From positions 1-22,097 of the IMG/VR virus record IMGVR_UViG_3300007640_010367: 22,097 nucleotides of DNA; one strand, given 5' to 3'. The notes below the pieces were generated by a model. It saw nothing but the letters and a program-made list of their open reading frames with translations. It had not been told where the DNA came from and did no database searches. Source of the DNA: a virus. Within the stretch, counting starts at the first letter, position 1. Every line of letters begins with the position of its first letter. Below are positions 1,760 through 22,069 of this stretch, piece after piece. The translations under genes were made by a program, and so were the position numbers.

Positions 1760-2325
1760 ACTTTATAATGTGGATTTTTAGTAATAGCTTGACCTACATC
1801 AACTTTATATTCTTCTAACACTTCTAACTCAAAATGTTTAATTACCCTTTGAGTATCATGTCCATGAGCTCTATGAAAATAATCATCAAAAGCTATAAAT
1901 TTTGGATTCATCCTTAAAGCATTTTCTGTATCCCTAAATATACCATTATAGGTGTGATCACCATCTATAAAAATTAAATCATACTTATTTACCATCCCAG
2001 CCATCTCTACAAAATCTTCAGTTAGTACACTGTGATCTAAATGAGAATAATTAAATCTATCTCCAAAAAGACTATTAATATATTCTAAAGATTTAGATAC
2101 TGTTTCTTTACTTCTTAAATCTATACTATGTAGTTTACATTCATCTGATGTGTTAAATAACCACATAAGGGCACTAACCCCTCTATTAAACCCTAATTCC
2201 AAAATAGATGTTGGAGAAGCTAATTGAGTCATTTTTGTAAAATTTTCAAAATGTCCATAATGCATTTCTCCTACTGTTTGGGGGGATAAATTACTTACAT
2301 GCTTTTCAAATTGTTCTTTTGTCAT
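1756..2325 (-). CDS. SAM-dependent methyltransferase (Methyltransf_24-like)
   Basis: This is a class I methyltransferase of 189 residues. LELGFNRG at 42-49 is the glycine-rich SAM-binding motif I. FIDGDHTY at 119-126 is the acidic motif typical of the Methyltransf_24 and cephalosporin-hydroxylase-like group. FDDYFH at 146-151 follows as a probable metal or substrate motif. Enzymes of this group methylate small molecules or sugars, and the position among glycosyltransferases suggests a glycan or its precursor as substrate (inference). The start at 2325 follows the stop of the upstream gene by one base. The stop overlaps the next glycosyltransferase start by four bases. Confidence 0.85.
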   Translation of the reverse strand: MTKEQFEKHVSNLSPQTVGEMHYGHFENFTKMTQLASPTSILELGFNRGVSALMWLFNTSDECKLHSIDLRSKETVSKSLEYINSLFGDRFNYSHLDHSVLTEDFVEMAGMVNKYDLIFIDGDHTYNGIFRDTENALRMNPKFIAFDDYFHRAHGHDTQRVIKHFELEVLEEYKVDVGQAITKNPHYKV

Positions 2326-2326
2326 T

Positions 2327-3591: not shown

Positions 3592-4250
3592 TGATTATAT
3601 ATTTTAAATTTTGATAAATCAGGATAAGGTAAAGTTAAATCTTCCTGATGTTTTTTAGTTCCATCCATATTATAAAATTGTCCCATAAGTAATACACCAC
3701 GAGCTGCTAGTTCAGGCATCATATAAAAATTCCAACCTAACATATCAAATTCATCATCATGGTATGAACATTCATTCCTACCTGAGTACCTAGCTCGTTT
3801 AAACCAACTATAAGCTTCTTCATCATCAGTTAATATAGCACCACCTTTACTTAATTTAAAATGTTTGTAAGGACCTGTAAAGGATACACACATATGAGTA
3901 CCTTTCAGATGCATATCTGCGGTAAATCTAAGTGCTGAATCATATACATTACTATTACCCAATTCATAAGCACCTTTCAATGTACCCTCTTTCATATCCA
4001 AACATCCATAGTTTTCGGTAAACTCCACCTTCAACCCAGCATGAATGATTTCACAAGGTACTGAGGGATATGTTCTCTTAGGACAGTAAACGAACCCACC
4101 TTTGATACTTTTCTTAATATGATTTTCGTAATACAATGCAAGAAATAATGCATTACTCATATTATCTACTGTCACAGCATATTTAGCTCCTGTATAATCT
4201 GCTAATTGCTGTTCAAATAATTCTGTGACTTCATAAATTCCGTGTGCCAT
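3588..4250 (-). CDS. Short DegT/DnrJ/EryC1/StrS-type aminotransferase homologue
   Basis: This is a PLP-dependent sugar aminotransferase fold. The N-terminus LADYTGAKYAVTVDNMSNAL matches the cofactor-phosphate region. D104 in NVYDSALRF matches the Asp that contacts the PLP ring nitrogen. K129 in SFTGPYKHFKLSKGGAI is the likely Schiff-base lysine. The frame ends soon after MMPELAARGVLLMGQFYN, at 220 residues against roughly 360-400 for the family, so nearly the whole C-terminal domain is missing. My recollection is that some T4-like marine phages carry similarly short versions, so it may be a phage subfamily and not a fresh truncation. The start at 4250 lies 49 bases inside the upstream gene. 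Later Met codons would remove the conserved GAKYAVTVDN segment. Confidence 0.78.
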   Translation of the reverse strand: MAHGIYEVTELFEQQLADYTGAKYAVTVDNMSNALFLALYYENHIKKSIKGGFVYCPKRTYPSVPCEIIHAGLKVEFTENYGCLDMKEGTLKGAYELGNSNVYDSALRFTADMHLKGTHMCVSFTGPYKHFKLSKGGAILTDDEEAYSWFKRARYSGRNECSYHDDEFDMLGWNFYMMPELAARGVLLMGQFYNMDGTKKHQEDLTLPYPDLSKFKIYNQ

Positions 4251-5056
4251 CTTCTTTCTTTTAATTCTAAATCCAGTATTTCTTTACCAGGGTTATGGTA
4301 ATGACAAATACCTTCTATTAATATGTTTTTATGACTACTATCTTGTATTCGATAATTATCAACTATTTGTAATAATATATGAAATTTTTCTGGGGATACC
4401 AAATGATGTTTGGTGATATTATTTCTAATGATGCATTTTTTTAAGAAATCTTCACAAGTCCAATCTTTAATATATTCCCAAACTCTTCCATTATATTCAT
4501 CTAAATTTTGAATATAATTATAAGTTTCATTTATATATTCTTTATCATAAAGATAATCTATTTTAGATGTGTTTAGAAAGTAGAAATTTGTTTGTGGGTA
4601 AAAATAATCACCATTAAAAAATTGTTTAATTTTGTACTCATCAAAACACCCAATACCAACTCCTTCTAAATAATAAAAATCCTTATTTTCAGGAATTTTT
4701 AATTGGAGAGAATATTCTTCTATAGTAATATCATGAGTTGATTTACATATCCAATCAATATTATTTTCTTTACAGTAATCTATAATAGCATTTTCTTGAT
4801 CAGCAATACCAAAAGAATGACCTCTGTTTTTCTCTAGATCTATTAATATACAATCTGGGAAGTATTCTTTCCACAAATCTTCATTTTCTTTTTGAAAATC
4901 CCCAGAGTAGTTAGTTACTATAATAAGATTTTTAAATTCTATAAGGATAGGTAAGTTATGGTTAATATAAACTTCTAATCTGTTTAAATCTTCATAACTA
5001 CCTATATAACCTATAGAACAATAATAACTTTTATTTATTAGTTTTTGTAAAATCAT
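4202..5056 (-). CDS. Putative glycosyltransferase-like protein of the glycan cassette, 284 aa
   Basis: I do not recognise a definite family. Visible features are an N-terminal region rich in beta strands with LIIVTNYSGDF (about 44-54), a KNRGHSFGIADQENAIIDYC segment, and DWICKSTHDITIEEY. The last two resemble the way GT-A enzymes present a donor-binding site (N-x-G followed by an acidic motif). The remainder is rich in Tyr, Asn and Asp with no membrane helix. Its place among glycosyltransferases is the main reason for the call. The start at 5056 lies 26 bases inside the upstream epimerase, and the stop lies 49 bases inside the downstream aminotransferase. It therefore overlaps at both ends, unusually deeply for this genome. 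Confidence 0.55.
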   Translation of the reverse strand: MILQKLINKSYYCSIGYIGSYEDLNRLEVYINHNLPILIEFKNLIIVTNYSGDFQKENEDLWKEYFPDCILIDLEKNRGHSFGIADQENAIIDYCKENNIDWICKSTHDITIEEYSLQLKIPENKDFYYLEGVGIGCFDEYKIKQFFNGDYFYPQTNFYFLNTSKIDYLYDKEYINETYNYIQNLDEYNGRVWEYIKDWTCEDFLKKCIIRNNITKHHLVSPEKFHILLQIVDNYRIQDSSHKNILIEGICHYHNPGKEILDLELKERRWHTEFMKSQNYLNSN

Positions 5057-6083
5057 CTTTCCAAAAAGAATATATTCCCTTATCTAGTTCATACTTTTCC
5101 CAAATAAATCTATCTCTCATTGGTTGTTTTTTAGCCCATTCCCACATTTTAGCTAAACCTTCTTCTAGTGTTGTTTTATATTCAAACCCTAAAATGTCAA
5201 TTGACTTTTGGTAAGTAGGAACAGCATGTTTTACTTCATGTCTACCTTCTAAGAATAAAGTTTCAGGTCTTTTACCTGTGTCTCTTTCTATAACATTTTT
5301 TAAAGCTTCATTTGCTCCTGATATGCTAATTTCTTCAATACCCCCCAAATTGATTATTTGTTTTGATGCTTTAGGTTCAATATGAGCATTAAATAAAGGT
5401 TCTAAAGAATCATCTATATAACTAAAGGCTCTAGTTTGGGAACCATCACCAAAAATAGATAAAGGTTGGTCATGTAAATGTTGGAACATCCAAATACCTA
5501 ACACATTTCTATATTTATCCCAAATGTTTTGTTTCATCCCATATACATTATGAGGTCTAATAATACAATAATCTAATCCATGTTGTTCATTAGCAATTTC
5601 AATATCTCTTTCACAACCCATTTTAGCTACACCATAAGGATCAATTGGGTTTCTACGCATATCTTCGTGGAAGATTCCACCTTCACCATGACCGTACACA
5701 GCCATTGTAGACGTGAATACTAAACGTTTTATATCGTGTTTAATACATTGAGTAACTATACGTGATGTTGCTACTAAATTGTTCTGATAATTATGTGTTC
5801 TAATAAAAGGTGATAAACCCTCAGCTGCATAAGCTGCAAAATGATAAACGTAATCAATTTTATGAGATTCAAATATATTTTCAATTGGGTGATTAACTAA
5901 ATCCATTTGCCAAAAATTAACCTTTGGGTTTATGTTTTCTTCAAACCCACCACTCAAATCATCAACTCCAATTACTTGATATTCGTCTCCTTTATTTTCA
6001 ATAATCCAGTCAGCTAATCTACTTCCTAATAAACCTGCTACTCCTGTTATTAATACTTTCTTTTTATTTTTCACTTCTTTCAT
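5031..6083 (-). CDS. Extended-SDR NAD-dependent sugar epimerase/dehydratase (GalE-like), 350 aa
   Basis: The NAD-binding Rossmann motif GVAGLLG is at residues 14-20. The catalytic triad is recognisable as S125/T126 in FTSTMAVYG plus Y150-x3-K154 (DPYGVAK). The substrate-binding RPHNVYG follows. These place it among extended short-chain dehydrogenases that epimerise or dehydrate NDP-hexoses. I chose the start at 6083 (MKEVKNKKK). It puts the Rossmann strand at the usual position and lies two bases after the stop of the 49-residue ORF. The longer frame to 6158 adds 25 residues that only shadow that small gene. A second, shorter epimerase lies at 7327-8199, so two different sugar interconversions are likely. 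The C-terminus overlaps the next frame by 26 bases. Confidence 0.88.
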   Translation of the reverse strand: MKEVKNKKKVLITGVAGLLGSRLADWIIENKGDEYQVIGVDDLSGGFEENINPKVNFWQMDLVNHPIENIFESHKIDYVYHFAAYAAEGLSPFIRTHNYQNNLVATSRIVTQCIKHDIKRLVFTSTMAVYGHGEGGIFHEDMRRNPIDPYGVAKMGCERDIEIANEQHGLDYCIIRPHNVYGMKQNIWDKYRNVLGIWMFQHLHDQPLSIFGDGSQTRAFSYIDDSLEPLFNAHIEPKASKQIINLGGIEEISISGANEALKNVIERDTGKRPETLFLEGRHEVKHAVPTYQKSIDILGFEYKTTLEEGLAKMWEWAKKQPMRDRFIWEKYELDKGIYSFWKDDFTKTNK

Positions 6084-6085
6084 AA

Positions 6086-6235
6086 TTATATTGCTTCTTT
6101 TTTTATAATTTTCCAATTTAAAGGTTGGCGATTTCTCTGATATTGTTCCATGGACCATTCCAACCTATCAGTTTTTAATTCCATTTGGTAAGATGACCCA
6201 TTAGGTAAAGTAACTTCAATTTTATATTTATTCAT
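6086..6235 (-). CDS. Small hypothetical phage protein, 49 aa
   Basis: This short frame (begins MNKYKIEVTLPNGSSYQMEL, ends NWKIIKKEAI) fills the interval between the nucleotidyltransferase and the epimerase. Its ATG lies within the last eight bases of the upstream gene, and its stop is two bases before the ATG at 6083. The sequence suggests a small beta sheet followed by an amphipathic helix containing DRLEWSMEQYQRNRQ. I have an impression of similar short proteins in T4-like marine phages but cannot verify it here. The fit into the operon geometry and the plausible composition support a real gene. Function is unknown. Confidence 0.7.
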   Translation of the reverse strand: MNKYKIEVTLPNGSSYQMELKTDRLEWSMEQYQRNRQPLNWKIIKKEAI

Positions 6236-6701
6236 CCATTTTTAATTTACGTTCAAAATATTGAGCTGCGTCTATTACCTCAGGGTTTTGCTTTACTGTC
6301 TGCATGGTAATCATATCTTTCATTTTAGTTGTTGACCAACCATGAGCTCTAGTTGTATAAACTATTTTAGGAGGTAAATCATCACCTGTAAAAGATTTAC
6401 CAATATAATCTTCACCTAATATTCTAATATCTGGTTTGAAAAAATTTATTAATTCGTATAATTCATCTTCAGTTTGATATACATAAACTTCATCAATATA
6501 TTTTATAGCCATTAAAGTTCTATACCTTTCATGTATAGGGATTACTGGTTTATATTTTGAATTTCTATGTAATGAAGGATCTCTTTGTAAGAATACAATA
6601 AATTTATCACAATGTTGTTTTGCTGCTTCAAATGTGTAAATATAACCAGGGTGGATTAAATCAAAGTTACCAGCTGTGAACCCTACAATTTCTTTTGCCA
6701 T
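6228..6701 (-). CDS. TagD/RfaE-like nucleotidyltransferase with an altered HxGH motif
   Basis: This is a single-domain HIGH-type nucleotidyltransferase of 157 residues, the family of glycerol-3-phosphate cytidylyltransferase and the heptose ADP-transferase domain. GNFDLIHPGY (11-20) is motif I. ERYRTLMAIKYIDEV (58-72) is the conserved middle. GWSTTKMKD (121-129) carries the STT-K signature that binds the nucleotide phosphates. Such enzymes activate a phosphorylated polyol or sugar with CTP or ATP. The second His of HxGH, important for catalysis in characterised members, is Tyr20 here. Activity may therefore be altered, or the reading may reflect a phage-specific subfamily. It lies one base downstream of a GT2 gene and overlaps the 49-residue ORF. 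Confidence 0.83.
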   Translation of the reverse strand: MAKEIVGFTAGNFDLIHPGYIYTFEAAKQHCDKFIVFLQRDPSLHRNSKYKPVIPIHERYRTLMAIKYIDEVYVYQTEDELYELINFFKPDIRILGEDYIGKSFTGDDLPPKIVYTTRAHGWSTTKMKDMITMQTVKQNPEVIDAAQYFERKLKMDE

Positions 6702-6702
6702 A

Positions 6703-7326
6703 TTAAAGAGTATTATAATAATTATTTTGTTTTACTTGTCTTTCTATATCTTTGGGGTGGTATAATGAAAATTCCTCAGTTTCCTGCAAATTGGACCATG
6801 TTTCATACCCCTCTAGTACTTCATGTACTTTATTCTTCCATTGAATCTTAGGATGATTTTTATAAATTCTCCATTGAAAATCAGGCCAATTAACCCAACC
6901 TTCTTCATTGATTCTCCATCCCCATTGTCTAACATATTCTTCAGTTAAACCAAATACTGTGTTGACACGAGGTACTCTAATTACTTCATTATTAGGATTA
7001 CTTAAAATAATTTCTGGTAGATATTCAATTAGGGTTTGGTGAGGAATTTCATCAGCATCAATTTGAAATATCCAATCCCCATTACAAAGTGAGGTTAAAT
7101 AATTTTTCCAATCAGCAAAATGACCATCAAAATCTTTTTTATACCAAACAAACTCCCCATTAATAGAATGGGATTGTAAATACTCTTCAACAGTATTACT
7201 CCCATTTTTGGAATCAAATAATATTACTATTTCATCTTCATATCTTTTATTTTCTAGAAGAAAGGATACCAATCTTTGAATTTCTACAGCTTCATTACAA
7301 ACTGTTATAGCATAACTAATTTTCAT
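6703..7326 (-). CDS. Family 2 glycosyltransferase (WaaE/KdtX-like)
   Basis: The N-terminus ISYAITVCNEAVEI is a typical GT2 start. DWIFQIDADEIP (84-95) supplies the DxD motif (D90-A-D92-E93). WPDFQWRIYKNHPKIQWKNKVHEVLEGY matches the acceptor-side pattern of WaaE-type LPS core glycosyltransferases (PD-x-Q-x-R plus KVHE). At 207 residues it is compact but has both halves of the GT-A domain. It probably adds a sugar to a core-like or protein acceptor in the cytoplasm. The start abuts the stop of the epimerase at 7327 with no intervening base. It is followed after one base by the nucleotidyltransferase, suggesting one polycistronic unit. Confidence 0.87.
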   Translation of the reverse strand: MKISYAITVCNEAVEIQRLVSFLLENKRYEDEIVILFDSKNGSNTVEEYLQSHSINGEFVWYKKDFDGHFADWKNYLTSLCNGDWIFQIDADEIPHQTLIEYLPEIILSNPNNEVIRVPRVNTVFGLTEEYVRQWGWRINEEGWVNWPDFQWRIYKNHPKIQWKNKVHEVLEGYETWSNLQETEEFSLYHPKDIERQVKQNNYYNTL

Positions 7327-8199
7327 TTAATATAAATTTTGAATGTAATCTAATAATCTATCTTGGGGTTTCCAACCTAAAATATCTTGTGCTGTAGTAT
7401 CAGTACATAAAGTTAGTCTGTAATTACCAGGTTGGTCTGTAATATATTTTATAGGGCATCCTGTTTTATTTTGAAACATTTCTGCTAATTCTTTAATAGA
7501 GTAATTAACACCTGTACCTAATTCCCAAGCTTCAATACTTGAAGATGTTTGGAAAAATTCTGGTGCTTTTTGGAACCATTGTCTTCCTATTCTCCATAAA
7601 CCATCTACAATATCATCTACATGAGTAAAATCTCTTCTTTGTTCACCATCACCTACAATTTTAATGTGAGATTTTCTTGCTATTCTAGATCTCCAAATAC
7701 CAATCACATTACCATTTACTTCATCTAATGCTTCACCAGGACCATAAACATTATAAAATCTACATATTTCAGCATTTAAACCAAATGATTCTTTATATAA
7801 ATTAATTACTCCTTCACCTAAATACTTATACATAGCATAAGGTGAAGTTGCTGGGTTATGGTGTTTAGAGGATGAACCAGCATATACTACTTTAGCTCCT
7901 ATACGAGAAGCAAATTTACAAACTTCTTCAGTTCCTTTTACATTTACTCTAAATGTTTCTGTTGGGTTTTCAAATGATGGTTGTACACGAGATTGAGCAG
8001 CTAGATGAAATATTAAATCATAATCTTTATGAATTGTATCTATTTCTTCAATATCACCCTCAAAGTACTCACAACCTTTTATTTTAGTATTACCTGTAGA
8101 ATAATTATCTAAGGAATGTACATTATGTTCCTCATTTAATAATCGTTTCACTAAATTACTTCCTATGAAACCAGCTCCACCTGTAACTAATATTTTCAT
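7327..8199 (-). CDS. UDP-sugar 4-epimerase-like extended SDR, 290 aa
   Basis: ILVTGGAGFIGSN (3-15) is a perfect GalE-type Rossmann motif. SSSKHH lies at the catalytic Ser position (109-114), and Y121-x3-K125 (SPYAMYK) gives the catalytic pair. RFYNVYGPGE and the RDFTHVDDI motif are substrate and cofactor signatures of UDP-glucose or UDP-GlcNAc 4-epimerases. The length is slightly short of the usual 310-340 residues, but both N- and C-terminal hallmarks are present. It would interconvert an NDP-hexose for the glycosyltransferases around it. It differs clearly in sequence from the epimerase at 5031-6083, so they are not a recent duplication. The start overlaps the upstream zinc-ribbon gene as ATGA. 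Confidence 0.9.
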   Translation of the reverse strand: MKILVTGGAGFIGSNLVKRLLNEEHNVHSLDNYSTGNTKIKGCEYFEGDIEEIDTIHKDYDLIFHLAAQSRVQPSFENPTETFRVNVKGTEEVCKFASRIGAKVVYAGSSSKHHNPATSPYAMYKYLGEGVINLYKESFGLNAEICRFYNVYGPGEALDEVNGNVIGIWRSRIARKSHIKIVGDGEQRRDFTHVDDIVDGLWRIGRQWFQKAPEFFQTSSSIEAWELGTGVNYSIKELAEMFQNKTGCPIKYITDQPGNYRLTLCTDTTAQDILGWKPQDRLLDYIQNLY

Positions 8200-8660
8200 T
8201 TTTCTTCTGCTGTAAATATTCCTATATAATCTAATGCTTCTATATAATCCTTTTCTTCAAATTCTTTAATAGTATCCATATCCATTCTCCATTCATAAAA
8301 TTCTCCTTCCTTATGAGGGTTTGGATATTTCTCTTTTTCGTCCTCTTTAACAGGAACGGCTAATACAGCTGCCCATTTCCAATTTAATGAATTTTTACCA
8401 TTAGCAAATATCATTCCTTTAGTAGGCATATTTACTGTTGAAGGCATCCAAACTTTACCTTCTTCATCTTCACCCATTAATTCCTTATAAAGGTTAGGCA
8501 AAAGCTCCATTTGCTCATCAAAGAATCTAGTATCCTTTTTTAGTAATGAATTAGTTATAAAACCACAACCATAACATTGGTAGTTTTTTATTTCACTATT
8601 TACTTCTTGAACATAACAAGCATCAGAACCACATCTATCACATTTAACTAAATTATCCAT
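8196..8660 (-). CDS. Phage protein with an N-terminal zinc ribbon, 154 aa
   Basis: Cysteines C7-x2-C10 (KCDRCGS) and C29-x2-C32 (YQCYGCGF) form a textbook zinc-ribbon knuckle pair spaced by a beta hairpin. The remaining 120 residues are acidic and Trp-rich (GKVWMPSTVNMPTKGMIF, NSLNWKWAAVLAVPV) and end in a helical EEKDYIEALDYIG segment. I associate this arrangement with conserved uncharacterised proteins of T4-like marine phages, from memory. Zinc ribbons often bind nucleic acid or mediate protein contacts. No enzymatic motif is visible. It sits between glycosyltransferase and epimerase genes, yet nothing in the sequence indicates a role in sugar metabolism. Confidence 0.8.
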   Translation of the reverse strand: MDNLVKCDRCGSDACYVQEVNSEIKNYQCYGCGFITNSLLKKDTRFFDEQMELLPNLYKELMGEDEEGKVWMPSTVNMPTKGMIFANGKNSLNWKWAAVLAVPVKEDEKEKYPNPHKEGEFYEWRMDMDTIKEFEEKDYIEALDYIGIFTAEEK

Positions 8661-8662
8661 AA

Positions 8663-9949
8663 TTATTGTATTGTTGGTAGTTTTTTGCCTTTTAACTCAG
8701 GCATTTTGAGTTGAACTTGAGTAGGAACATCTACATTATCATCTAATAACTTTATAATTAGATTTTTCATAGCATCATAGCTAAAATTCTTTTTTAATCT
8801 ACTACTTTGTGTTTTACTCTTTTTCAACCATTGTTTATAATTTTTCTTAACATCAACTAAAAAATGTCCTAAATGTTGATGGTCAACATCAAACCATTGT
8901 GAACCTTCAATTAACATATCTTTTTGTTGGGAAGATGGGTGGATTGGATTTACTTTTCCTCCCATTAAAGCCGTTAGTTTGGGATTTAAAAAATCTACTT
9001 GTCCTGACCATCCTGATGCTATAATTGGCTTTCCAGTTAATGCAAATTCTAATAAAGGTCTACCAAATCCTTCTCCCTTAGTAGCTGATACCATGGATTT
9101 GATTTTAGGATGATTGTACAATTCATTCATTTCATCATCTGAAAAGTCTCCATGAATTAAATATACATTAGGAAGTTTGTTTGATGGTACAGATTTTCTT
9201 ATAGAATTAATTCTTTTCATTACCTCTCTTTTATCCATCTTTGATCCTCTCCCACAACTAGCTTTTAAAATTAATGCAGGGGCATTAGATTTATTTTTAA
9301 ACACTTCATAAAAAGCTTTAATTAACAATCCAACATTTTTTCTATCATGTCCTATTTCTCCTTGTAACCAGTGACCTACAAACAAATAAGCAAATTTTTC
9401 AGGGATTGTATTTATATGATTAAATAGTTCTTTATTAGTAAATTCTTTAATTCCTTTATAAACATCTAAATTAGCACCTTCAAATAATACTTTAACAGGT
9501 GTTGATAATTTTAAAATTTGTTTTTCTCCCGTTTGTTGGTGTTGTACTTCATATGATGATGTTTCAAAAACATGTTTTGAATGTTTTGATGAAGTTAAAA
9601 CTAAATCCATTCTATTACATCCCTCAATCCATTGGGGGGCACAAGCTGTTGTTTCAATCCCAGCTGTAAGTCCAATATTATACACCCCAACCTGTTGGAA
9701 TTCATTAGGTACCGTAATTTGACACCAAATGTCTGGTTTAGATGTTAGATTAGGGATAATATGATTTTTCATAAAACCCCACTCAGGAAAATCATCTAAA
9801 AATCCTTTTCTTGTATTCCCCCATCTTTGAGATAAAATTTTTACTTCATATTTATCTGATTCAATTAATGATTTAATAAAATCTCTTGATCTAGCACCAT
9901 AGCCTGAGTAAGTATCTACGGGTGCGCTTATAACAAATGTATTTTTCAT
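8663..9949 (-). CDS. GT4-type glycosyltransferase (GT-B fold), 428 aa
   Basis: The N-terminal acceptor domain starts FVISAPVDTYSGYGARSRDF, in which the glycine-rich loop typical of GT-B enzymes is visible. The C-terminal donor domain contains VGHWLQGEIGHDRKNVGLLIKAF and the retaining-GT4 signature E293-x7-E301 (GEGFGRPLLE), where the two glutamates contact the nucleotide sugar. Length and domain order are normal for the family. It is expected to act in the cytoplasm on an NDP-sugar donor. It is adjacent, without intervening bases, to a second GT4 enzyme. The two share general architecture but not close sequence, so they probably catalyse successive linkages. The acceptor is unknown. Confidence 0.88.
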   Translation of the reverse strand: MKNTFVISAPVDTYSGYGARSRDFIKSLIESDKYEVKILSQRWGNTRKGFLDDFPEWGFMKNHIIPNLTSKPDIWCQITVPNEFQQVGVYNIGLTAGIETTACAPQWIEGCNRMDLVLTSSKHSKHVFETSSYEVQHQQTGEKQILKLSTPVKVLFEGANLDVYKGIKEFTNKELFNHINTIPEKFAYLFVGHWLQGEIGHDRKNVGLLIKAFYEVFKNKSNAPALILKASCGRGSKMDKREVMKRINSIRKSVPSNKLPNVYLIHGDFSDDEMNELYNHPKIKSMVSATKGEGFGRPLLEFALTGKPIIASGWSGQVDFLNPKLTALMGGKVNPIHPSSQQKDMLIEGSQWFDVDHQHLGHFLVDVKKNYKQWLKKSKTQSSRLKKNFSYDAMKNLIIKLLDDNVDVPTQVQLKMPELKGKKLPTIQ

Positions 9950-11380
9950 TTAATATTCTAATTTATGGTTTAAAACTCTAGGTTTAAAATCTGTATCTTT
10001 GGAAAATGTGAATTTTTTTCTAGGTTTCCAAGTTGAGAATAACTCATCTACCCCATCAATAAATTTCTTACCCATTTTTTCTGCTGTAAATCCTGCTTCA
10101 TCTCCTATAGCCCATTTTCTACCAGCATTACCTATTTTTTGTCTTTTTTCTTTAGACATTTTATATAATTCAATAATCTTATCTCTTGCATCTCTAAAAT
10201 CACATCTACTATCCCAAATATAAGGTGTAACTGGTGAACCTACTAACCCCATAGCTTTAGGGAAAACCGGTAGTACCCATTCACCATGTTCTTTATAAGT
10301 ACCAAATTGATTTGAAGGTATTTCTTTTGAATTTGTATACCAATCTCCTTTTTCATTTACAAATCTCATTTGATCTTGCATACCACCTGTTACATTGGCA
10401 ATAAATGGAGTACCTGTTAATAAAGATTCAGTTAAGGCTAATCCCCACCCTTCAGCTGAAGATAGTAAAATCACACCATCCGCCATATTATAAAGATAGT
10501 TCATATGTTGGTGTGGGATTTTTTGACTTGAAATAACTACTGTTTCATCATCTTCTCCTAACAAGTATTCTACTACAGATGGTAAATCTGTACCATGATC
10601 ACTTACAGGGTCTGTATGGAGTGTAAACTGAACTCTTGACTTTTCTTCATCACTAAGCGTATCAATAAATAATTTCCACGCTGCTAAAGCATCTGGGATA
10701 GATTTACGTCTAATATTTCTAGAATTGAAAAATAAAATAAAATCTTTATCTTGACCTCTAGTTATATGTGTTTTGAACTTTTCGTACTCATCATCCTTTT
10801 CTGTAATTGGGAAAAATTTCTTAGTATCTAAACCATGAGGGACATATTTAATAACTTTATCATTTGCTTTATCATCTAAAACAATTTTATTAATAATAAC
10901 TGTTTGTTTTGAAATACCAAATAAAGCATCACACGAATCGTAAAATTCTTCATTATATTGAGGTGCTGGTAAATCATCCCAAATATTTAAATATATAATT
11001 GGTGTATTTACACGAATTTCTTCCTCCATATTAAATAACCATTGAAAATATCTAGGATCCGTAATTAAGAAAATGGCATCTGGTTTTTCAATTTTAAGAA
11101 TTTCTCTTAAAACATTTTCATCACCATACCCATCAACTGGGTATAATTTACAATAAGCGTCATCAATCCCTGCTTCCTTATTAATATCAGAACTTATATC
11201 TGAAATTTTCCCCTTATCTGGGTGTTTGATTGAACCTGCTATTTGACACCAATCATAATGATGAGCTGTGTTTAATACAAGTTCTCGTCCTATCTGAGCA
11301 ACTCCTGAATGAACTCTAATGTCATCCGTAAGCAATAGAATTTTTTTTCTATCACCAGATTTAATATAACCTTCTTTCAT
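9950..11380 (-). CDS. GT4-type glycosyltransferase (GT-B fold), 476 aa
   Basis: The first strand and loop (KILLLTDDIRVHSGVAQIGREL, about 13-34) is the GT-B N-terminal glycine-loop pattern. The interdomain region carries VIKYVPHGLDTKKFFP, a standard GT4 landmark. The donor-binding E310-x7-E318 motif (SAEGWGLALTES) follows, then TGTPFIANVTGG. The C-terminal extension of about 40 basic and aromatic residues (STWKPRKKFTFSKD onward) is unusual and might dock to a partner. It is the first gene of the glycan cassette in transcription order. It begins six bases after the stop of the ribbon-helix-helix-like gene, so the late promoter upstream of that gene could drive this whole cassette. Confidence 0.88.
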   Translation of the reverse strand: MKEGYIKSGDRKKILLLTDDIRVHSGVAQIGRELVLNTAHHYDWCQIAGSIKHPDKGKISDISSDINKEAGIDDAYCKLYPVDGYGDENVLREILKIEKPDAIFLITDPRYFQWLFNMEEEIRVNTPIIYLNIWDDLPAPQYNEEFYDSCDALFGISKQTVIINKIVLDDKANDKVIKYVPHGLDTKKFFPITEKDDEYEKFKTHITRGQDKDFILFFNSRNIRRKSIPDALAAWKLFIDTLSDEEKSRVQFTLHTDPVSDHGTDLPSVVEYLLGEDDETVVISSQKIPHQHMNYLYNMADGVILLSSAEGWGLALTESLLTGTPFIANVTGGMQDQMRFVNEKGDWYTNSKEIPSNQFGTYKEHGEWVLPVFPKAMGLVGSPVTPYIWDSRCDFRDARDKIIELYKMSKEKRQKIGNAGRKWAIGDEAGFTAEKMGKKFIDGVDELFSTWKPRKKFTFSKDTDFKPRVLNHKLEY

Positions 11381-14992: not shown

Positions 14993-15265
14993 TTAAACAC
15001 CTTGTCTAAATTCTCCATACATACTATATACTTTTGGTGCTTCTTTTTTAACTTCTACTTCTGAGGATTGAATAGCATATAATTTACTATTCATAGGATC
15101 TAATCTAAAAGCTCCATTAAAGTTTGATTGGTGGAAAAATGCTTCTAAGGCATCAGTTAAAGTATTAAAAACTTCTTTAGTTGGATCACCAACTAGAGAC
15201 CACCTGTCTCCAGGAGGTACTCTAGTAGCAATCAATTCATTATGTTCTACAACCTTTTTTTCCAT
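14993..15265 (-). CDS. Hypothetical protein, 90 aa, between groEL and gp44
   Basis: A mixed alpha/beta small protein with ATRVPPGDRWSLVGDPTKEVFNTLTDALEAFFHQ in the first half and FNGAFRLDPMNSKLYAIQSSEVEVKK in the second. It ends in KVYSMYGEFRQGV. There are no cysteines, no membrane segment and no recognised motif. The start shares one base with the GroEL stop (TAATG), so its translation is likely coupled to GroEL. It could be a chaperonin accessory or substrate-related protein by association only. The family is not recognised. Confidence 0.75.
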   Translation of the reverse strand: MEKKVVEHNELIATRVPPGDRWSLVGDPTKEVFNTLTDALEAFFHQSNFNGAFRLDPMNSKLYAIQSSEVEVKKEAPKVYSMYGEFRQGV

Positions 15266-16899
15266 TACATCATTTGCATAGAATTTGGTTGAGGATCATT
15301 CTGTTCAGGATGATCAACAACAACACATTCAGTTAATAATATTGTTCCCGCAACTGAGGCTGCATTCGCAAGTGCTGTACAAGTTACTTTAGTTGGATCG
15401 ATGATTCCATCTTCTCTCATATCAACTACTTCATCTTTTTTAAGGTTATATCCTGCCCAATAATCATTACCTGATTCACATAATTTGTTTGCTAACATTT
15501 CTGCTTGAGTATTATCATAACCAGCATTTGAAAGAATTTGAACAAATGGTTTTCTACATGCCTTTTTTACAATTTGATATCCTAATGAATTAGCATCTAA
15601 ACCATTAGAACTATACAATAAAGCAGCTCCACCACCAGGTACAATACCTTTATCTAATGCTGCTTTTGTTGCATGTAACGCATCATCTACTCTATCTTTC
15701 TTTTCTCCAATTTCAGTTTCAGTTAATCCACCTACATGAATAATAGAAACACCACCAATCATTTTTGCTAAACGATTTTGTAAATGTTCAACAATATACG
15801 GAGTATCTTCTTTATCAATTTGAGATTGAAGATCATTTACTCTATTATTAATAGCATCTTCTTCACCTTTACCATCTACAATTGTAGTTTGTTCTTTAGT
15901 AACAGTAACTGTTCGAGCTTGACCAAACCAATCATAAGAAAACTTATCAAGTTTCATTCCCTTATCTTTATCAAATACGGTTCCACCTGTTAAAGTAGCA
16001 ATATCTTCAAGTAATAATTTTTTTCTATCCCCAAAATCAGGAGCTTTTACAGCAGCAACTTTAAGAATACCTCTTGCTTTATTAACAATAAGTGTTGCTA
16101 AAGCTTCGCCATCAATATCATCGGCAATAATAAGTAATGATTTATTAGCATTTGAAACTCCTTCTAAAATCGGAAGTAATTCTTTAACTTGTGTAAATTT
16201 ATGATCTGCAATTAATACATAAGGATCTTCTAATGTACAACTCATATCTGAATTATTAGTAACAAAGAAATGTGACTTATAACCTCTATCAAATTGCATA
16301 CCTTCTACTGTTTCAAGATAAGTTTCACCTGATTTGCTTTCTTCAATATGAACAACACCTTCTCTACCTACCTTTTCAATAGCTGTAGCGATTAATTTAC
16401 CTACTTCAATATCATTATTAGCTGATATAGTTGCAATTTGTTGTAATTGTTCTTCAGAAGAAATCTCTTGAGAAATTGATGATTCAATTACATCAATAAC
16501 TTCTTTAACAGCACCTTCAATTTGTCTTTTGATTTCAACTGCATTTTCTCCGTTATTCAAATGTTTAAGACCTTCTCTAATTAATTCACGAGCCAACAAT
16601 GTAGATGTGGTTGTACCATCACCTGCTTTATCTGCTGTTTTAAGTGCAGCTTGTTTTACCATTTGAGCACCTAAATTTTTAACTAAACCATTTACAGTAA
16701 TATTTTTAGCTACTGTAACTCCATCTTTAGTATGAGTTGGTTTTTGCATATTATCATAACCTGATTGGTCAATTAATACATTTCTACCATTAGGTCCTAA
16801 TGTGCAAACTACAGCATCAGCTAATGTATTAATTCCTTCCATTAGTTCAGCCCTAGCTTCAGGACCAAAATGAACTTCTTTTTTAAAATCTATTGGCAT
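15265..16899 (-). CDS. groEL: Phage-encoded GroEL chaperonin (HSP60)
   Basis: This is a full-length group I chaperonin of 544 residues. LGPNGRNV (34-41), KDGVTVAK with D59 and DKAGDGTTT with D94 form the ATP site. RVDDALHAT with D406 supplies the catalytic Asp equivalent to E. coli D398. VPGGGAAL follows. Equatorial, intermediate and apical regions are all present without gaps. The C-terminus ends PNSMQMM and lacks the repeated GGM tail of bacterial GroEL. With GroES it would form a folding cage, presumably for phage structural proteins. T4 itself encodes only the co-chaperonin gp31. The gene follows GroES after 13 bases of AT-rich sequence and is preceded by an AAAAAGAA leader. A late box upstream of the 98-residue gene probably serves this group. 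Confidence 0.97.
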   Translation of the reverse strand: MPIDFKKEVHFGPEARAELMEGINTLADAVVCTLGPNGRNVLIDQSGYDNMQKPTHTKDGVTVAKNITVNGLVKNLGAQMVKQAALKTADKAGDGTTTSTLLARELIREGLKHLNNGENAVEIKRQIEGAVKEVIDVIESSISQEISSEEQLQQIATISANNDIEVGKLIATAIEKVGREGVVHIEESKSGETYLETVEGMQFDRGYKSHFFVTNNSDMSCTLEDPYVLIADHKFTQVKELLPILEGVSNANKSLLIIADDIDGEALATLIVNKARGILKVAAVKAPDFGDRKKLLLEDIATLTGGTVFDKDKGMKLDKFSYDWFGQARTVTVTKEQTTIVDGKGEEDAINNRVNDLQSQIDKEDTPYIVEHLQNRLAKMIGGVSIIHVGGLTETEIGEKKDRVDDALHATKAALDKGIVPGGGAALLYSSNGLDANSLGYQIVKKACRKPFVQILSNAGYDNTQAEMLANKLCESGNDYWAGYNLKKDEVVDMREDGIIDPTKVTCTALANAASVAGTILLTECVVVDHPEQNDPQPNSMQMM

Positions 16900-16913: not shown

Positions 16914-17204
16914 TTATTTATTAATTTTTGCTAAAATTTGATTCTCTGGACCTACCCAATATTCTTCTCCTTCATATGGAAGTTTTGTAAATCCTTGGGT
17001 TGGTAATACTACTATATCACCTACTTTACTAATAGTTTCAATAAATGAACCCATAAGTGTATTTTGTCCTGGGCCAACTGCTATAATTTCACCCATTTGG
17101 TTTTTGTCATTACCCATATCTGGTACAATAATATTACCATGTTGGGTTTCTTCTGCTTCTATTGGTTTTACAATAACAGCATTAAATAGTGCTTCTAATT
17201 TCAT
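16914..17204 (-). CDS. groES: Phage-encoded GroES co-chaperonin
   Basis: The sequence follows the GroES beta barrel. It has LFNAVIVKPIEAEE at the start, then a mobile loop region (HGNIIVPD, about 22-29) that binds GroEL. MGEIIAVGPG comes next, then KVGDIVVLP and a terminal ILAKINK. The length, 96, is normal. The mobile-loop IIV stands where bacterial GroES has the hydrophobic IVL tripeptide. The pair with the adjacent GroEL argues that the phage chaperonin works as its own two-component machine. The start overlaps the stop of the 98-residue gene as ATGA, so translation is coupled. AAAGGA lies directly upstream but only two bases from the ATG, too close for a standard Shine-Dalgarno site. Confidence 0.94.
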   Translation of the reverse strand: MKLEALFNAVIVKPIEAEETQHGNIIVPDMGNDKNQMGEIIAVGPGQNTLMGSFIETISKVGDIVVLPTQGFTKLPYEGEEYWVGPENQILAKINK

Positions 17205-17497
17205 AATCCTTTGTAATTTTGTAATTTTTTTAATTCAACTAATAATTCATCCCATCTTTCAACATACTCTTTGATACTAACATAATGTTCTTTCTCATTA
17301 TTTAGTTTTTCTTTAGCTACCCTTTGCAGTGCAGCACCAAATGAAGAATAATGTCCTTGGGGTTTTTCATATTTCTTACCTTCACTACCTTCTGCTAAAT
17401 ATTTCTCTTGAGGAGTAACAACTTCATATACTGTATAACAGTATGAATCTTTTCCTATAAAATAGGGTTCTAATAGGGGATCTGTAATTCTTGCCAT
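17201..17497 (-). CDS. Hypothetical protein co-encoded with GroES, 98 aa
   Basis: The N-terminus ARITDPLLEPYFIGKDSYCYTVYEVVTPQEKYL looks like a small beta sheet. The middle has GHYSSFGAALQRVAKEKLN, and the C-terminus is a helix (VSIKEYVERWDELLVELKKL). The layout GHYS-FG-AL followed by a helix resembles small phage proteins of the DUF5405 type. I offer that only as a weak possibility. It is the first gene after the late-promoter box at 17514-17521. It overlaps GroES by four bases, so it appears to be part of a late chaperonin transcript. No catalytic motif is visible. Confidence 0.75.
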   Translation of the reverse strand: MARITDPLLEPYFIGKDSYCYTVYEVVTPQEKYLAEGSEGKKYEKPQGHYSSFGAALQRVAKEKLNNEKEHYVSIKEYVERWDELLVELKKLQNYKGL

Positions 17498-17521: not shown

Positions 17522-17546
17522 ACGTAAATATACGAAAACATATAAT

Positions 17547-17566
17547 GTAAACCAACCTAAGGGCGC
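17547..17566 (+). repeat. Left arm of the 20-base inverted repeat bracketing hsp20
   Basis: Plus-strand GTAAACCAACCTAAGGGCGC is matched at 17 of 20 positions by the reverse complement of 18050-18069. It includes GGGCGC, which is striking in so AT-rich a genome. This arm lies just beyond the hsp20 stop and overlaps a local hairpin. Confidence 0.7.
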
Positions 17567-17575
17567 TTTTAGGTT
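17554..17575 (-). terminator. Hairpin at the hsp20 stop codon, possible terminator
   Basis: AACCTAA (minus, 17575-17569) pairs perfectly with TTAGGTT (17560-17554) around an eight-base loop AAGCGCCC. The stem begins within the hsp20 stop codon. The following minus-strand bases (GGTTTACATT) are only moderately T-rich, so this is not a canonical intrinsic terminator. It may pause transcription or protect the hsp20 mRNA. Its 3' part also belongs to the long inverted repeat, so the two structures would compete. Confidence 0.4.
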
Positions 17576-17996
17576 ACTTAATTTTAATTGTTTTCGGTTT
17601 TGATTCTTCAGCTAGAGGGATTAAAATGTCTAGCAATCCATTTTCTAAAATAGCATCTGTTTTTGATAAATCAAATTTAGGAGCTATCTTATATCTTAAA
17701 TCAAAAGACTTTTTTGATAATCCATTATAGATAGTACCTTCATGGAATTTTTCTTCCTCTGGCTTTTTATAACTAATTTTTAAAATATCTCCTTCAATGT
17801 CAAGTTCAACATCTTTTTTAGTTAGCCCAGTACAGGCAACTTCAAAATGAAGTCCTTCATCATCATAAAAAATATTAAGGGGGTGGGGTTGTTTAGTGTC
17901 TAATGCAGGTTGAAATGTGCTGTCAGACTTAAAGTGATTCCTAAAAAGGATGTCGAAAGGACTTATATGCCTCTCTAATAATTGTAATGTACTCAT
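17574..17996 (-). CDS. hsp20: Small heat-shock protein, Hsp20/alpha-crystallin family
   Basis: The alpha-crystallin domain spans about residues 38-130 and shows the family signatures. These are GLHFEVACTGLTKKDVELDIEGDILKIS (strands 2-5) and AILENGLLDILIP (A115 to P127, the conserved A-x-L-x-x-G-x-L-type motif). The C-terminal I137-x-I139 motif is the oligomerisation anchor. The N-terminus (LLERHISPFDILFRN) is a typical amphipathic arm. It is an ATP-independent holdase that would keep unfolded proteins ready for the GroES/GroEL pair encoded just downstream. T4-like cyanophages are known to carry hsp20, so the gene fits an aquatic T4-like phage. No Shine-Dalgarno sequence precedes the ATG. The gene has its own leader with a tetraloop hairpin and lies inside a long inverted repeat. 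Confidence 0.95.
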   Translation of the reverse strand: MSTLQLLERHISPFDILFRNHFKSDSTFQPALDTKQPHPLNIFYDDEGLHFEVACTGLTKKDVELDIEGDILKISYKKPEEEKFHEGTIYNGLSKKSFDLRYKIAPKFDLSKTDAILENGLLDILIPLAEESKPKTIKIK

Positions 17997-18011
17997 ATCA
18001 TTTAGTTTTGT

Positions 18012-18028
18012 GCTGTCTTTCGATCAGC
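18012..18028 (-). promoter_or_regulatory. GNRA-tetraloop hairpin in the hsp20 leader
   Basis: Minus-strand GCTGATCGAAAGACAGC folds as GCTG/CAGC, one bulged A, then TC/GA closed by a GAAA tetraloop. GAAA closed by C-G is an especially stable loop. It ends 15 bases before the hsp20 ATG, so it could modulate initiation, for example by temperature-dependent opening, or stabilise the mRNA 5' region. The role is inference. The fold is read directly from the sequence. Confidence 0.45.
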
Positions 18029-18049
18029 GGTTAATAAAATATAAAACGT

Positions 18050-18069
18050 GCGCCCTTGGGTCGATTTAC
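18050..18069 (-). repeat. Right arm of the 20-base inverted repeat bracketing hsp20
   Basis: Minus-strand GTAAATCGACCCAAGGGCGC differs from the left arm (17547-17566, plus strand) only by three transitions. In the sense RNA the two arms could form 17 Watson-Crick pairs, two G-U pairs and one C-A mismatch. This arm lies between the FkbM gene and hsp20. TATAGT directly upstream might be a weak -10 element. Confidence 0.7.
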
Positions 18070-18085
18070 TATACATATATTAAGA

Positions 18086-18709
18086 TTAAGGAGTTAATAA
18101 ATAATTTTTATATGCTTCTTTTATTTGGATTTTATAATTTAAATTATTAACTAAATAATCAATAGTTTCTCCTGTAAAATCTTCTATCCATATTATTGGT
18201 TTTGATTGGATTATAGTTTTAATAGCTCCTTCTATAGCAGATAACTCATGACCTTCAATATCTATCTTAATAAATGAAATATTTTTAATATTTAAAGAAT
18301 CTAAAGCCATTACAGGACATTTTTCTCCTTTAATTGATAGAGATGCTCCTCCTTTATTTGTATTATTATCACTAGAGATATGAACTATACCTTCATTACT
18401 CCCTAAAGCTAATTTAAGGGGGTGTATTTTAGGATAAAATCTAGTATTATATGATAATAATTCGTAGTTTGAAAGGAATGGTTCAAATGAAAAAACTTCA
18501 ATATCATTGTAATAAGAAGAAAACATTATAGAATGATTACCAATATTAGCTCCAATATCTAAAAATATACCCTTTTTAGGAATAAAATTTTTAAAACTAT
18601 TAAAAATATCAATCTCATAAAAATCATTTGTTTTTTCTATTATAGAAGAAATAAGATCATTTTCGTGAATCTTGAATTTTTGACCTTTAAAATTAATTTT
18701 TTTATACAT
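18086..18709 (-). CDS. FkbM-family SAM-dependent methyltransferase
   Basis: DIGANIGNHS (51-60) is the FkbM SAM-binding motif I. SFEPF (74-78) holds the acidic residue for the ribose. IKIDIEGHE (147-155) is the conserved motif of the family, and GAIKTIIQSKPIIWIE completes the fold. Family members methylate hydroxyl groups of sugars, lipids and other metabolites. It is complete (207 residues) and lacks membrane segments. Its location between the sliding clamp and hsp20 is odd, because such genes normally sit with glycan genes, which here lie more than 6 kb downstream. It may be an independent insertion. It starts nine bases after the clamp stop and is followed by the 89-base hsp20 leader. Confidence 0.9.
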   Translation of the reverse strand: MYKKINFKGQKFKIHENDLISSIIEKTNDFYEIDIFNSFKNFIPKKGIFLDIGANIGNHSIMFSSYYNDIEVFSFEPFLSNYELLSYNTRFYPKIHPLKLALGSNEGIVHISSDNNTNKGGASLSIKGEKCPVMALDSLNIKNISFIKIDIEGHELSAIEGAIKTIIQSKPIIWIEDFTGETIDYLVNNLNYKIQIKEAYKNYLLTP

Positions 18710-19457: not shown

Positions 19458-20390
19458 TTAAAATTTAAAAAACATTTCTTTATAAGGGTTTAAGTTTAAA
19501 GTCCACCCTAAATCATTATAAAATCCTTCTAATTTATTTAACAAAATCGATTCAAATATTTTTTTTCTATCTGCATTTTGCTCAATGAATGTACGAATTT
19601 TTTCTGGTAAATCCCACTCTAAAAATGCTATTGCATCAATTTGGTATGGGTTTGGTTTTAGATAAATCCATTTAATTTTATCACCTTGGGTTATTTGACT
19701 GTGTGTTTTATTTAAACCCCAAAAGTTTAATAAATCATTGTATCTAATAACGGCTCTTACAGCTGCGGGGGCTCCTTTAGCTACTACAGTAAACATTTCA
19801 CCTGCTCTTGCTTTCCTTTCAGTATATTTATTTAATGTTTTTACTGATGTTGGATTACCTAATTCTGTAAGAGGAATACTACCATCTAATATTTGGGTTT
19901 TAAACTCTTTTAATCGTTTATCTATTTCGTTTTGTTCAGTTCCTTTTAATACATCAACTAAAGTCTTATGGAAGAATTTACCTAATACAGGTGGGAAATT
20001 TGCTTTTTTAAATTCAAGGCCTTTAACATCAAGTGATTCTTTTACAATACCTTCTTGTTTTGTAATCCATTGGGCATATCTTCTTGTAGCTCTAAAATAT
20101 GCTGAACGAATAACACATTCAGTTTTCATTTCTAATCTATGTTTACCTTTAGCATTAAAACAATCTGTAGCTAAAATATCATAAGAATCAGTAATAATAT
20201 CTTGATACTTAAGAGCAACTTCTTCTAATTTATCATCTTTATCTTCACTTGACATTTCATCAAAATCAGAATATAAATGTCTAAGTAAAGGTTCTGCATG
20301 AATATAAATTGAATCCGTATCAGAATATGCTACATAATTTGTGTCTTCAGGATCACATATCCACCAAGGAGTATCTTCTAAATGTTTCAT
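19458..20390 (-). CDS. 43B: DNA polymerase family B, C-terminal piece (palm motif C and thumb)
   Basis: The frame begins 10-30 residues before the catalytic motif C YSDTDSIYI (D24-T25-D26, matching D621/D623 of RB69 gp43). It continues through the rest of the palm and the thumb to the end. LEMKTECVIRSAYFRATRRYAQW is the KKRY-like region. The C-terminal YKEMFFKF resembles the LFDMFDF clamp-binding tail of T4/RB69 polymerase. The ATG overlaps the stop of the N-terminal piece as ATGA, the same coupling seen elsewhere in this operon. The two chains must associate to work, since motifs A and B are on one and motif C on the other. T4-like Aeromonas phages are known to have split gene 43. No intron or homing endonuclease lies between the pieces. 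Confidence 0.93.
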   Translation of the reverse strand: MKHLEDTPWWICDPEDTNYVAYSDTDSIYIHAEPLLRHLYSDFDEMSSEDKDDKLEEVALKYQDIITDSYDILATDCFNAKGKHRLEMKTECVIRSAYFRATRRYAQWITKQEGIVKESLDVKGLEFKKANFPPVLGKFFHKTLVDVLKGTEQNEIDKRLKEFKTQILDGSIPLTELGNPTSVKTLNKYTERKARAGEMFTVVAKGAPAAVRAVIRYNDLLNFWGLNKTHSQITQGDKIKWIYLKPNPYQIDAIAFLEWDLPEKIRTFIEQNADRKKIFESILLNKLEGFYNDLGWTLNLNPYKEMFFKF

Positions 20391-22069
20391 AATTCTATTT
20401 CATTTTTCATTACACGATTCATATGTCTATTTGCGGCTAATGCAGATTCTTGTATAATACGTTGTCCACTAAGTGTTATAGCTTCAGACAGTATAACATT
20501 CCCATAACGAAATGATCCAAGAGCAGTGGCACCATATAACGAATTAAGTAAAATTTTCATTGTATACTGTTTCATATGGAATGCTGCACCTAATTCTTTA
20601 TTCCCAGATTTATATGCTTTTTTCATTTCATTTTTGTATAAAACTCTTTCATCAAACCATTTTTTAAGTATAGTAGATAATACTGATTCACGATTTGTAT
20701 TAAATAATACTCCATTTGCTGATACTGAAAGGTCATTTTGTTCTATCATAGCTACTAATCTACCAGCATTAACTTTAGTTCTACTTCGTTTAGCATTTTC
20801 AACAATTAATTCTTCCTCAGGATCTCTACATTTTAAATCATTTAATCCTAAACGGTTATTCCTATCATCAGCATCTATAATTCTCCCAACCATTGTTTCT
20901 TTACCAATGTTAATAGTCATAATAATTGAAGGGTATAGTGAAGTTAAATCCTCATCAAATACATAATTGTAAATACCAGCTTTAGGACAAAATAAATAAC
21001 CACCAGCATAATTCTTTTTAGATAAAGGATTACGATCTTTAGCAGGGGGAATTATTTTTTTACTCAATAAATAAGCTGAGATAGCTCCGTCTTGTGTTTT
21101 AGTATTTGCATATACTTCACTATAATTATGTTTACCTTTATGAGCCAAGTTTTTAACTAACGATAAATACTCTAATTTCTCATCTAATACTTTTAGAATT
21201 TCAACATCCCTAAAGTTATACTGGATGAATTTCAGTGGATCTTCTTCGAATAATTTATCTAAATTTCCATCATATTCGATTTTATTAATACCAGCATATT
21301 TTTCCCCAATAGCATCTAATTTAAATGATGGTTCATCTTTCCAACTGAATTTTTTATGTAATCTCATATAATCTAAAGACTCAACCCCTGCAATTTGCAC
21401 ATATTGATCTTTAAACCAAGGTGTTTCTCTAACATAACCAATTGGGGATAAATAACGAGCAACATCATCACCCAATACATTACACATTCTATAATAAAGA
21501 TATGGGATATCAAAATAATCGCTATTCCACCCTACTACAATATCAGGATCTATTTCTCTGAATCGTTCTAGAAATTTAAGTAATAATTCTTCTTCAGTTG
21601 CACACGGAATAATTTCTTTTGTTTTTGCTTTAGTTCTTTTTAGGTTTGATTTTGGATCTAAAATTAAAATAGCCCACTCATCTACCTGTTTATCATACCA
21701 AGCAATTGATGTTACTTTTTTAGGTGCTGATTTAATATAATCTTCAGTTAGAGCATCACCCATTTCGGTTTCAATATCAAAAAATAATTCTCTGTGAGTT
21801 TGAGAGGGTTCATCATTTATACCATATTTTTCAACTAAAAATTTCTGGTATGGAGTCATATCATGAAAGTGAAGTTTTGAGTTATCTGACTTCCAATTAG
21901 CTACTTTTTTTAAAGATTCTCCATTTAGACCAGTATGTGTAGATTGAGATTCATCACATTCAATATAAGCTTGATTAGTCCATTCAACTTTACTATAACC
22001 TGTGTCCTCCCAAAGGTGAATTAAGAATTGGTTTCCCTTTTTTCTTTGTGCGAAACATTTTTTGTACAT
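20387..22069 (-). CDS. 43A: DNA polymerase family B, N-terminal piece (exonuclease, palm motif A, fingers)
   Basis: The N-terminal domain (1-90) precedes the 3'-5' exonuclease. Exo I is FFDIETEMG (D98, E100), Exo II is GWNSDYFD (N182, D187), and Exo III is YNFRD (Y284, D288). Polymerase motif A is DLTSLYPSII (D374-I383). Fingers motif B is KILLNSLYGA (K505, N509, Y512). All proofreading and nucleotide-binding residues are intact. The frame stops at residue 560, just where intact T4 gp43 would lead to motif C, and the remainder is encoded by the next ORF. Both pieces together total 870 residues, against 898 in T4. The start at 22069 follows CAGGTTATAA. The weak AGG there is one of the better Shine-Dalgarno candidates in the window. 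Confidence 0.95.
   Translation of the reverse strand: MYKKCFAQRKKGNQFLIHLWEDTGYSKVEWTNQAYIECDESQSTHTGLNGESLKKVANWKSDNSKLHFHDMTPYQKFLVEKYGINDEPSQTHRELFFDIETEMGDALTEDYIKSAPKKVTSIAWYDKQVDEWAILILDPKSNLKRTKAKTKEIIPCATEEELLLKFLERFREIDPDIVVGWNSDYFDIPYLYYRMCNVLGDDVARYLSPIGYVRETPWFKDQYVQIAGVESLDYMRLHKKFSWKDEPSFKLDAIGEKYAGINKIEYDGNLDKLFEEDPLKFIQYNFRDVEILKVLDEKLEYLSLVKNLAHKGKHNYSEVYANTKTQDGAISAYLLSKKIIPPAKDRNPLSKKNYAGGYLFCPKAGIYNYVFDEDLTSLYPSIIMTINIGKETMVGRIIDADDRNNRLGLNDLKCRDPEEELIVENAKRSRTKVNAGRLVAMIEQNDLSVSANGVLFNTNRESVLSTILKKWFDERVLYKNEMKKAYKSGNKELGAAFHMKQYTMKILLNSLYGATALGSFRYGNVILSEAITLSGQRIIQESALAANRHMNRVMKNEIEL

Follow-up and report, generated by a model that had tools for sequence, protein, structure and literature searches.

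Long helices formed by the two flanks of a functional RNA are familiar from the processing stems of 16S and 23S rRNA. Helices that close a whole cistron have, to our knowledge, rarely been shown in bacteria or their viruses. Leader structures are well established on genes of the hsp20 family, where RNA thermometers of the ROSE and Hsp17 types control small heat-shock genes, and the coat operator of MS2-type phages consists of a stem, a bulged A, two base pairs and a tetraloop. In Staphylococcus aureus, the 3' UTR of the icaR message pairs with its 5' UTR, covering the ribosome site, lowering expression and exposing the mRNA to RNase III (PMC3868564). The 5' end of a message also bears on its decay, as RppH and RNase E require an unpaired 5' end, and structured 5' regions make mRNA more stable (PMC3997798). 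An example is the gene 32 mRNA of phage T4, which is stabilised by a 5' CUUCGG hairpin according to work cited in PMC8948821. Here we describe complementary arms that flank the hsp20 gene across a large group of phages that are uncultured and for the most part marine, together with a hairpin in the leader of the same gene.

The stretch of DNA analysed (the window) is a virus record of 22,097 bases, with nearly all genes on the minus strand. The gene order is a family B DNA polymerase (two ORFs), a 244-aa ORF, an FkbM methyltransferase, hsp20, a 98-aa ORF, groES and groEL, beyond which lie clamp-loader genes and a block of sugar/glycosyl transferase genes. The two ORFs into which the polymerase is split (19458-20390 and 20387-22069) overlap by 4 nt, and the FkbM-type methyltransferase between hsp20 and the 244-aa ORF occupies 18086-18709. 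The long block at 968-11380 consists of glycosyltransferase, epimerase, acetyltransferase-like and aminotransferase-like ORFs, assigned by eye from their translations, and probably makes or alters a surface sugar.

The hsp20 cistron is enclosed by two 20-base arms, which form the closing helix P1, and carries the hairpin P2 in its leader (Table 1). An earlier note on this DNA had described the arms as reverse complements at 17 of 20 positions, and we confirmed this. All three differences are transitions, which in the hsp20 sense become two G-U pairs and one C-A mismatch, so that 19 of 20 positions pair when G-U is allowed. A local hairpin overlapping the 3' arm, likewise described there, is also present in the window. 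With thresholds set at 17 or more of 20 matches, a GC content of 50% or higher and a distance of 300-700 nt between the arms, the hsp20 pair is the sole 20-base inverted repeat of the window, and comparable repeats were absent from 20 locally shuffled windows. A search of the window for further copies of the arm returned the consensus only at its two sites (0 expected).

Table 1. Features of the hsp20 locus and the chaperonin genes that follow it, in window coordinates.
Feature	Position	Strand	Remarks
hsp20 CDS, the enclosed cistron, 140 aa	17574..17996	-	Pfam PF00011 (HSP20), E=2.9e-11; PHROG 432 Hsp20
5' arm of closing helix P1, sense GTAAATCGACCCAAGGGCGC	18050..18069	-	complementary to 17547-17566; counterpart in all of at least 164 relatives
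3' arm of P1, sense GCGCCCTTAGGTTGGTTTAC	17547..17566	-	7 nt past the hsp20 stop codon
Leader hairpin P2	18012..18028	-	between 5' arm and start codon; covariation
Local hairpin that would compete with P1	17554..17575	-	not conserved in relatives
Promoter-like box TATATGTATA, adjoining the 5' arm on its upstream side	18070..18079	-	putative promoter
Further promoter-like motif TTTCGTATATTTACG, between the 3' arm and 98aa-groES-groEL	17523..17537	-	putative role
98-aa ORF, downstream of hsp20	17201..17497	-	
groES (Cpn10)	16914..17204	-	Pfam PF00166, E=1.3e-17
groEL (Cpn60)	15265..16899	-	Pfam PF00118, E=1.5e-67

Relatives of the locus were collected by Hsp20 protein similarity, and the set was therefore not picked for its arms; one contig from a Flavobacteriaceae MAG was included. 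The best 80 loci of each of two collection scans were kept, and removal of duplicates left at least 164 distinct loci. Complementary arms flank hsp20 in all 117 distinct loci first tested and in every one of the at least 164 distinct loci among the matches listed. Relatives with non-complementary hsp20 flanks, which the earlier note had named as the observation that would speak against a paired element, were thus not encountered among these matches. Very distant hsp20 relatives without arms may exist. The arms themselves differ between lineages, with pairs of the types CUAGGGCAC/GUGUCCUAG, AAGGCGCGC/GCGCGCCUU, CUCGAGAGCG/CGCUCUCGAG, CCUUCCGGG/CCCGGAAGG, CCUAGGAGGCA/UGCCUCCUAGG, CAGGGACC/GGUCCCUG and others. 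By GroEL, the closest cultured phage is Flavobacterium phage immuto (58.9%), which has groES-groEL with no adjoining hsp20. This match and the Flavobacteriaceae MAG contig make a flavobacterial host likely, though not certain. The immuto region 31603-51183 has a gene order in common with the window (groES-groEL ... PD-(D/E)XK nuclease, small ORF, glycosyltransferases); a family A polymerase lies upstream, and hsp20 is absent there.

P1 comprises about 15-25 base pairs, usually arranged as an outer and an inner helix separated by a small bulge or internal loop. Comparison of the loci indicates that it joins the leader to the sequence just past the stop codon, enclosing the whole cistron of ~420 nt in one loop. 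The distance from the 5' arm to the AUG has a median of 54 nt (48-72), and the 3' arm follows the stop codon by 4-23 nt. Like the rRNA processing stems, P1 is formed by two flanks; in contrast to them, it encloses a single protein-coding cistron. As in icaR, the two UTRs of one message pair with each other and thereby close the cistron, for hsp20 as judged by comparison and folding. Whereas the 7-nt icaR motif covers the Shine-Dalgarno site, the hsp20 arm ends 48-72 nt before the AUG, and the hsp20 helix is long, covarying, universal in the phage clade (among the matches listed) and accompanied by a second hairpin.

The pairing is specific to the arms of each locus. Leader-trailer duplexes of cognate arms have a predicted mean energy of -32.0 kcal/mol over the 117 loci, compared with -16.8 (sd 4.3) for leaders combined with trailers of dissimilar loci and -14.7 for shuffled trailers. 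A dissimilar trailer matched the pairing strength of the locus's own trailer in only six of the 117 loci, and among more distant loci the z-scores of arm pairing range from -3.2 to -8.0. Covariation of the arms, scored across the relatives as the earlier note had suggested, shows that the sequence diverges between lineages and that the pairing is kept by compensatory changes. In 50 representative loci, columns of the inner helix often contain two or more Watson-Crick types, for example GC in 18, CG in 15 and TA in 15 loci; a second P1 column has TA in 28, CG in 9, GC in 7 and AT in 2. Since this table was built on fitted duplexes, it only describes the helix, unlike the comparison of cognate with non-cognate duplexes, which constitutes unbiased evidence. 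Both analyses replaced RNAalifold, which returned no structure on a MAFFT alignment, as that alignment had put the downstream arms from different lineages out of register.

Mismatches within the paired cores were counted under a scoring scheme that treats all transitions alike. Read in the mRNA sense, 249 of them are G-U and 71 are A-C, so that G-U makes up 77.8%, against 54.7% expected from base composition; an earlier, looser count had given 130 G-U and 42 A-C. The formal p-value of this bias is not to be taken literally, as the loci are related. A DNA-only element would have no reason for such a bias, and the preference for G-U in the mRNA sense therefore points to selection at the RNA level. 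When the transcript was folded from -80 to +45, the helix between leader and trailer was present in the minimum-energy structure of all 24 loci folded; the expected number of cross pairs was about 18-26. Compensatory changes for specific helices, the mark of a conserved structured RNA, are found in both P1 and P2. Of the meanings proposed in the earlier note, a long-range RNA structure is thus strongly supported by the cognate-specific pairing, the compensatory changes, the wobble bias of the sense strand and the predicted fold. From these sequence comparisons, P1 is almost certainly a real structure that acts at the RNA level, and the many compensating mutations indicate that evolution maintains the end-to-end pairing of the hsp20 message.

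P2 is a second feature at hsp20, absent from the earlier note. In the window it reads GCUG-A-UC-GAAA-GA-CAGC, corresponding to four base pairs, a bulged A at 18024, two further base pairs and a tetraloop. In an alignment of 49 leaders, standard pairs occupy 94% of the cells, compared with 67% in shuffles, and the covariation score of 0.581 (0.140 in shuffles) was reached by none of 500 shuffles. Sliding the partner by one to three columns destroyed the signal. The bulged A and the loop-closing C-G pair never vary in this alignment. The loops are mostly UUAG or UUCG, with GAAA, UAAG, CUAG and others also present; C(UUCG)G is present in 38 of the 106 loci parsed by pattern, with different loops elsewhere, and two subgroups carry loops of 3 and 5 nt. 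P2 is located at about -33 to -16 relative to the AUG in most lineages, and ~50 nt before the AUG, adjoining the 5' arm, in loci L242, L269, L271, L279, L290 and L294. Across 17 long contigs, a covariance model of the leader gave one strong match per genome, at hsp20. One contig showed two leader matches close to its two ends, most likely a repeated end. In locus L040 (5001-5575), the leader hairpin and start region are repeated after an early stop in hsp20, which suggests a local duplication or an assembly error.

The geometry of P2, and the geometry alone, likens it to the MS2-type operator, with a bulged A, two base pairs and a 4-nt loop (loops of 3 and 5 nt also occur). The P2 loop is not conserved, however, and its carrier is a tailed DNA phage; the resemblance is probably convergent. 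P2 differs from ROSE-like thermometers in that it covers neither the Shine-Dalgarno site nor the AUG, and a thermometer match in Rfam was not obtained. With the T4-like CUUCGG leader hairpins (gene 32; cited in PMC8948821), it shares the character of a stable 5' hairpin in a large tailed phage, often with C(UUCG)G. It departs from them in its variable loop, its constantly bulged A and the closing helix that links the leader to the 3' side.

Both structures appear confined to hsp20. Within the window, no P1-like enclosure was seen at the 98-aa ORF, at groES, at groEL or at either of two upstream genes (z about 0 to +1), and no other enclosed genuine gene was found in a 170-kb relative. One stronger pairing elsewhere in that relative was caused by flanking tRNA genes, and another enclosed candidate proved to be a spurious ORF. 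Arm pairing is absent at the hsp20 genes of Pelagibacter phage HTVC008M, cyanophages P-RSM1 and S-CRM01, and Vibrio phage PWH3a-P1 (z 0.1 to 0.8). In IMG/VR, the arm pattern matched hsp20 leaders plus two unrelated sites by chance. Rfam 15 gave 0 matches at the gathering cut-off in the window and five relatives, a relaxed search gave chance-level matches only, and we found no published description of an hsp20 closing element in the open-access literature. The hsp20 element is a new structured RNA, long-range UTR pairing itself being already known.

The surroundings of hsp20 are constant on one side only. Genes upstream belong to many unrelated families among the loci, whereas the longest ORF just downstream encodes a GroES-like, GroEL-like or 98-aa protein in 116 of 117 loci, the 98-aa family accounting for 22 of the 117. 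In L003, L004, L006 and others, the nearest upstream gene is a relative of the window's 244-aa ORF. A TATATnTATAAT-like (TATA-type) box is found in 112 of 117 loci at a median of 89 nt before the ATG, ending near the 5' arm; past the 3' arm, 115 of the 117 loci have a TATATT box. Words of the TATTTATA and TTCGTATA types are enriched upstream of genes in the 170-kb relative. The sequence TTTCGTATATT, present at 17523-17537 of the window and in relatives, recurs near gene starts and may represent a promoter class of these phages alongside the TATTTATA class. The promoter-like boxes on both sides suggest, without proving, that hsp20 is transcribed as a separate unit bordered by the two arms. In loci L180, L188 and L279, the 3' arm is present although no promoter motif lies downstream, which assigns this arm to hsp20 and not to the downstream promoter; hsp20 may be read through into the next gene in these three loci. 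In the window, the outermost P1 pairs touch the promoter-like box, so that some of them are possibly untranscribed.

At the start of hsp20, the motif XTGAT precedes the start codon in the window (17993-18001, minus strand) and in 148 of 164 relatives (from the set of at least 164 loci), with X being A in 126, G in 21, T in one and never C. The hsp20 ATG is thereby overlapped by a frame of two codons, XTG-ATA-TGA. Among the lineages that lack XTGAT are ones with AAGGA-type Shine-Dalgarno-like sequences.

Our best explanation, which the sequence evidence makes somewhat more probable than all others together, is an RNA element that closes the hsp20 message by pairing its 5' and 3' sides and would most likely shield or define the ends of the mRNA, while the hairpin would bind a protein or add stability. 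As the promoter-like box ends beside the 5' arm, transcription of hsp20 would begin at the outer end of P1 or close to it. The 5' end of the mRNA would become paired once the 3' arm is transcribed, and such a paired end would be a poor substrate for 5'-end-dependent decay. P1 might also block 3' exonucleases, or offer an RNase III duplex for excising hsp20 from longer transcripts. With one arm ~54 nt ahead of the AUG and the other 4-23 nt past the stop codon, neither is reached by ribosomes during initiation or termination; hsp20 would therefore be translatable while closed, and P2 would serve as a stabilising or protein-binding site. The net effect would be a long-lived, self-contained hsp20 message, separate from neighbouring messages. 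By analogy with icaR, where 5'-3' UTR pairing feeds RNase III, P1 could equally shorten the life of the mRNA.

We give roughly an even chance that P1 and P2 act mainly on the ends, stability or processing of the mRNA; a main action on translation and some other main role are each less likely, and equally so. End protection or definition, at about evenly balanced confidence, is accordingly favoured over translational control, a possible but doubtful reading. In the latter, P1 and the bulged-A hairpin would hold the leader in a shape for a phage or host protein, possibly Hsp20, that tunes translation up or down. The invariant bulged A and conserved shape with variable stem sequence, as in protein-binding operators, the closeness of P2 to the AUG in most lineages and its occurrence once per genome, at hsp20 only, agree with such a role. 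On the other hand, loop sequence and size vary, P1 ends well before the AUG, and the position of P2 ~50 nt upstream in six loci means that start-site blocking by position is not the general mode. A fairly unlikely alternative on this sequence evidence, overlapping the best explanation, is that P1 would be an RNase III processing stem, cut on both strands and freeing hsp20 from longer transcripts. Its duplex of near two turns with an internal loop stands at both cistron borders, and loci that lack a visible downstream promoter motif still have the 3' arm; an upstream cut nevertheless seems unnecessary, because the promoter-like box adjoins the 5' arm in 112 of 117 loci.

It is quite improbable that P1 is a split intrinsic terminator, in which the nascent 3' arm would pair to the 5' arm and, together with a U-run, end transcription after hsp20. 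Many loci with CUAGGGCAC arms have A-tract, GC stem and U-tract in the correct order, but the window, L004, L008, L069, L184 and many others have a broken U-tract or none at all, whereas the helix is universal among the matches listed; a GC stem directly followed by a U-tract, as in an intrinsic terminator, is thus not seen in the window and several lineages. The inverted repeats around a single gene and the varying upstream neighbours might instead bring to mind a DNA-level element, with the arms as paired regulator-binding sites or as the terminal repeats of a mobile hsp20 cassette, both suggested in the earlier note. The wobble bias specific to the mRNA sense makes this highly improbable, as do arm sequences that differ by lineage with complementarity kept within each locus. 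Arm copies were not found elsewhere, and the arm pattern matches only hsp20 in IMG/VR, barring the two chance matches. Instead of ends shared at several sites or genes, as a mobile cassette would have, the arms are lineage-specific and restricted to hsp20, and the downstream chaperonin region is constant while the upstream region varies freely; the cassette is accordingly not supported. The same note had conceived a two-state switch, with P1 and the local hairpin as its alternative states. The window allows either to be drawn, but the local hairpin is present only there and in L003, takes a similar form in L004-L006 and is absent elsewhere, and the switch is extremely improbable.

Backed by unusually strong covariation, the hsp20 element that closes the message end to end offers a testable model for how a phage could isolate and protect one message, and a clean system for the effects of an end-to-end closed mRNA on decay and translation. 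It also indicates that these phages have a particular need of Hsp20 in addition to GroES/GroEL of their own, and P2 may lead to a novel RNA-binding protein. It is very improbable that the closed message is circularised by an RNA ligase, or forms a structured ribonucleoprotein bound through the bulged-A hairpin; if true, DNA phages would thereby provide their first clade-wide case of a closed-loop monocistronic mRNA.
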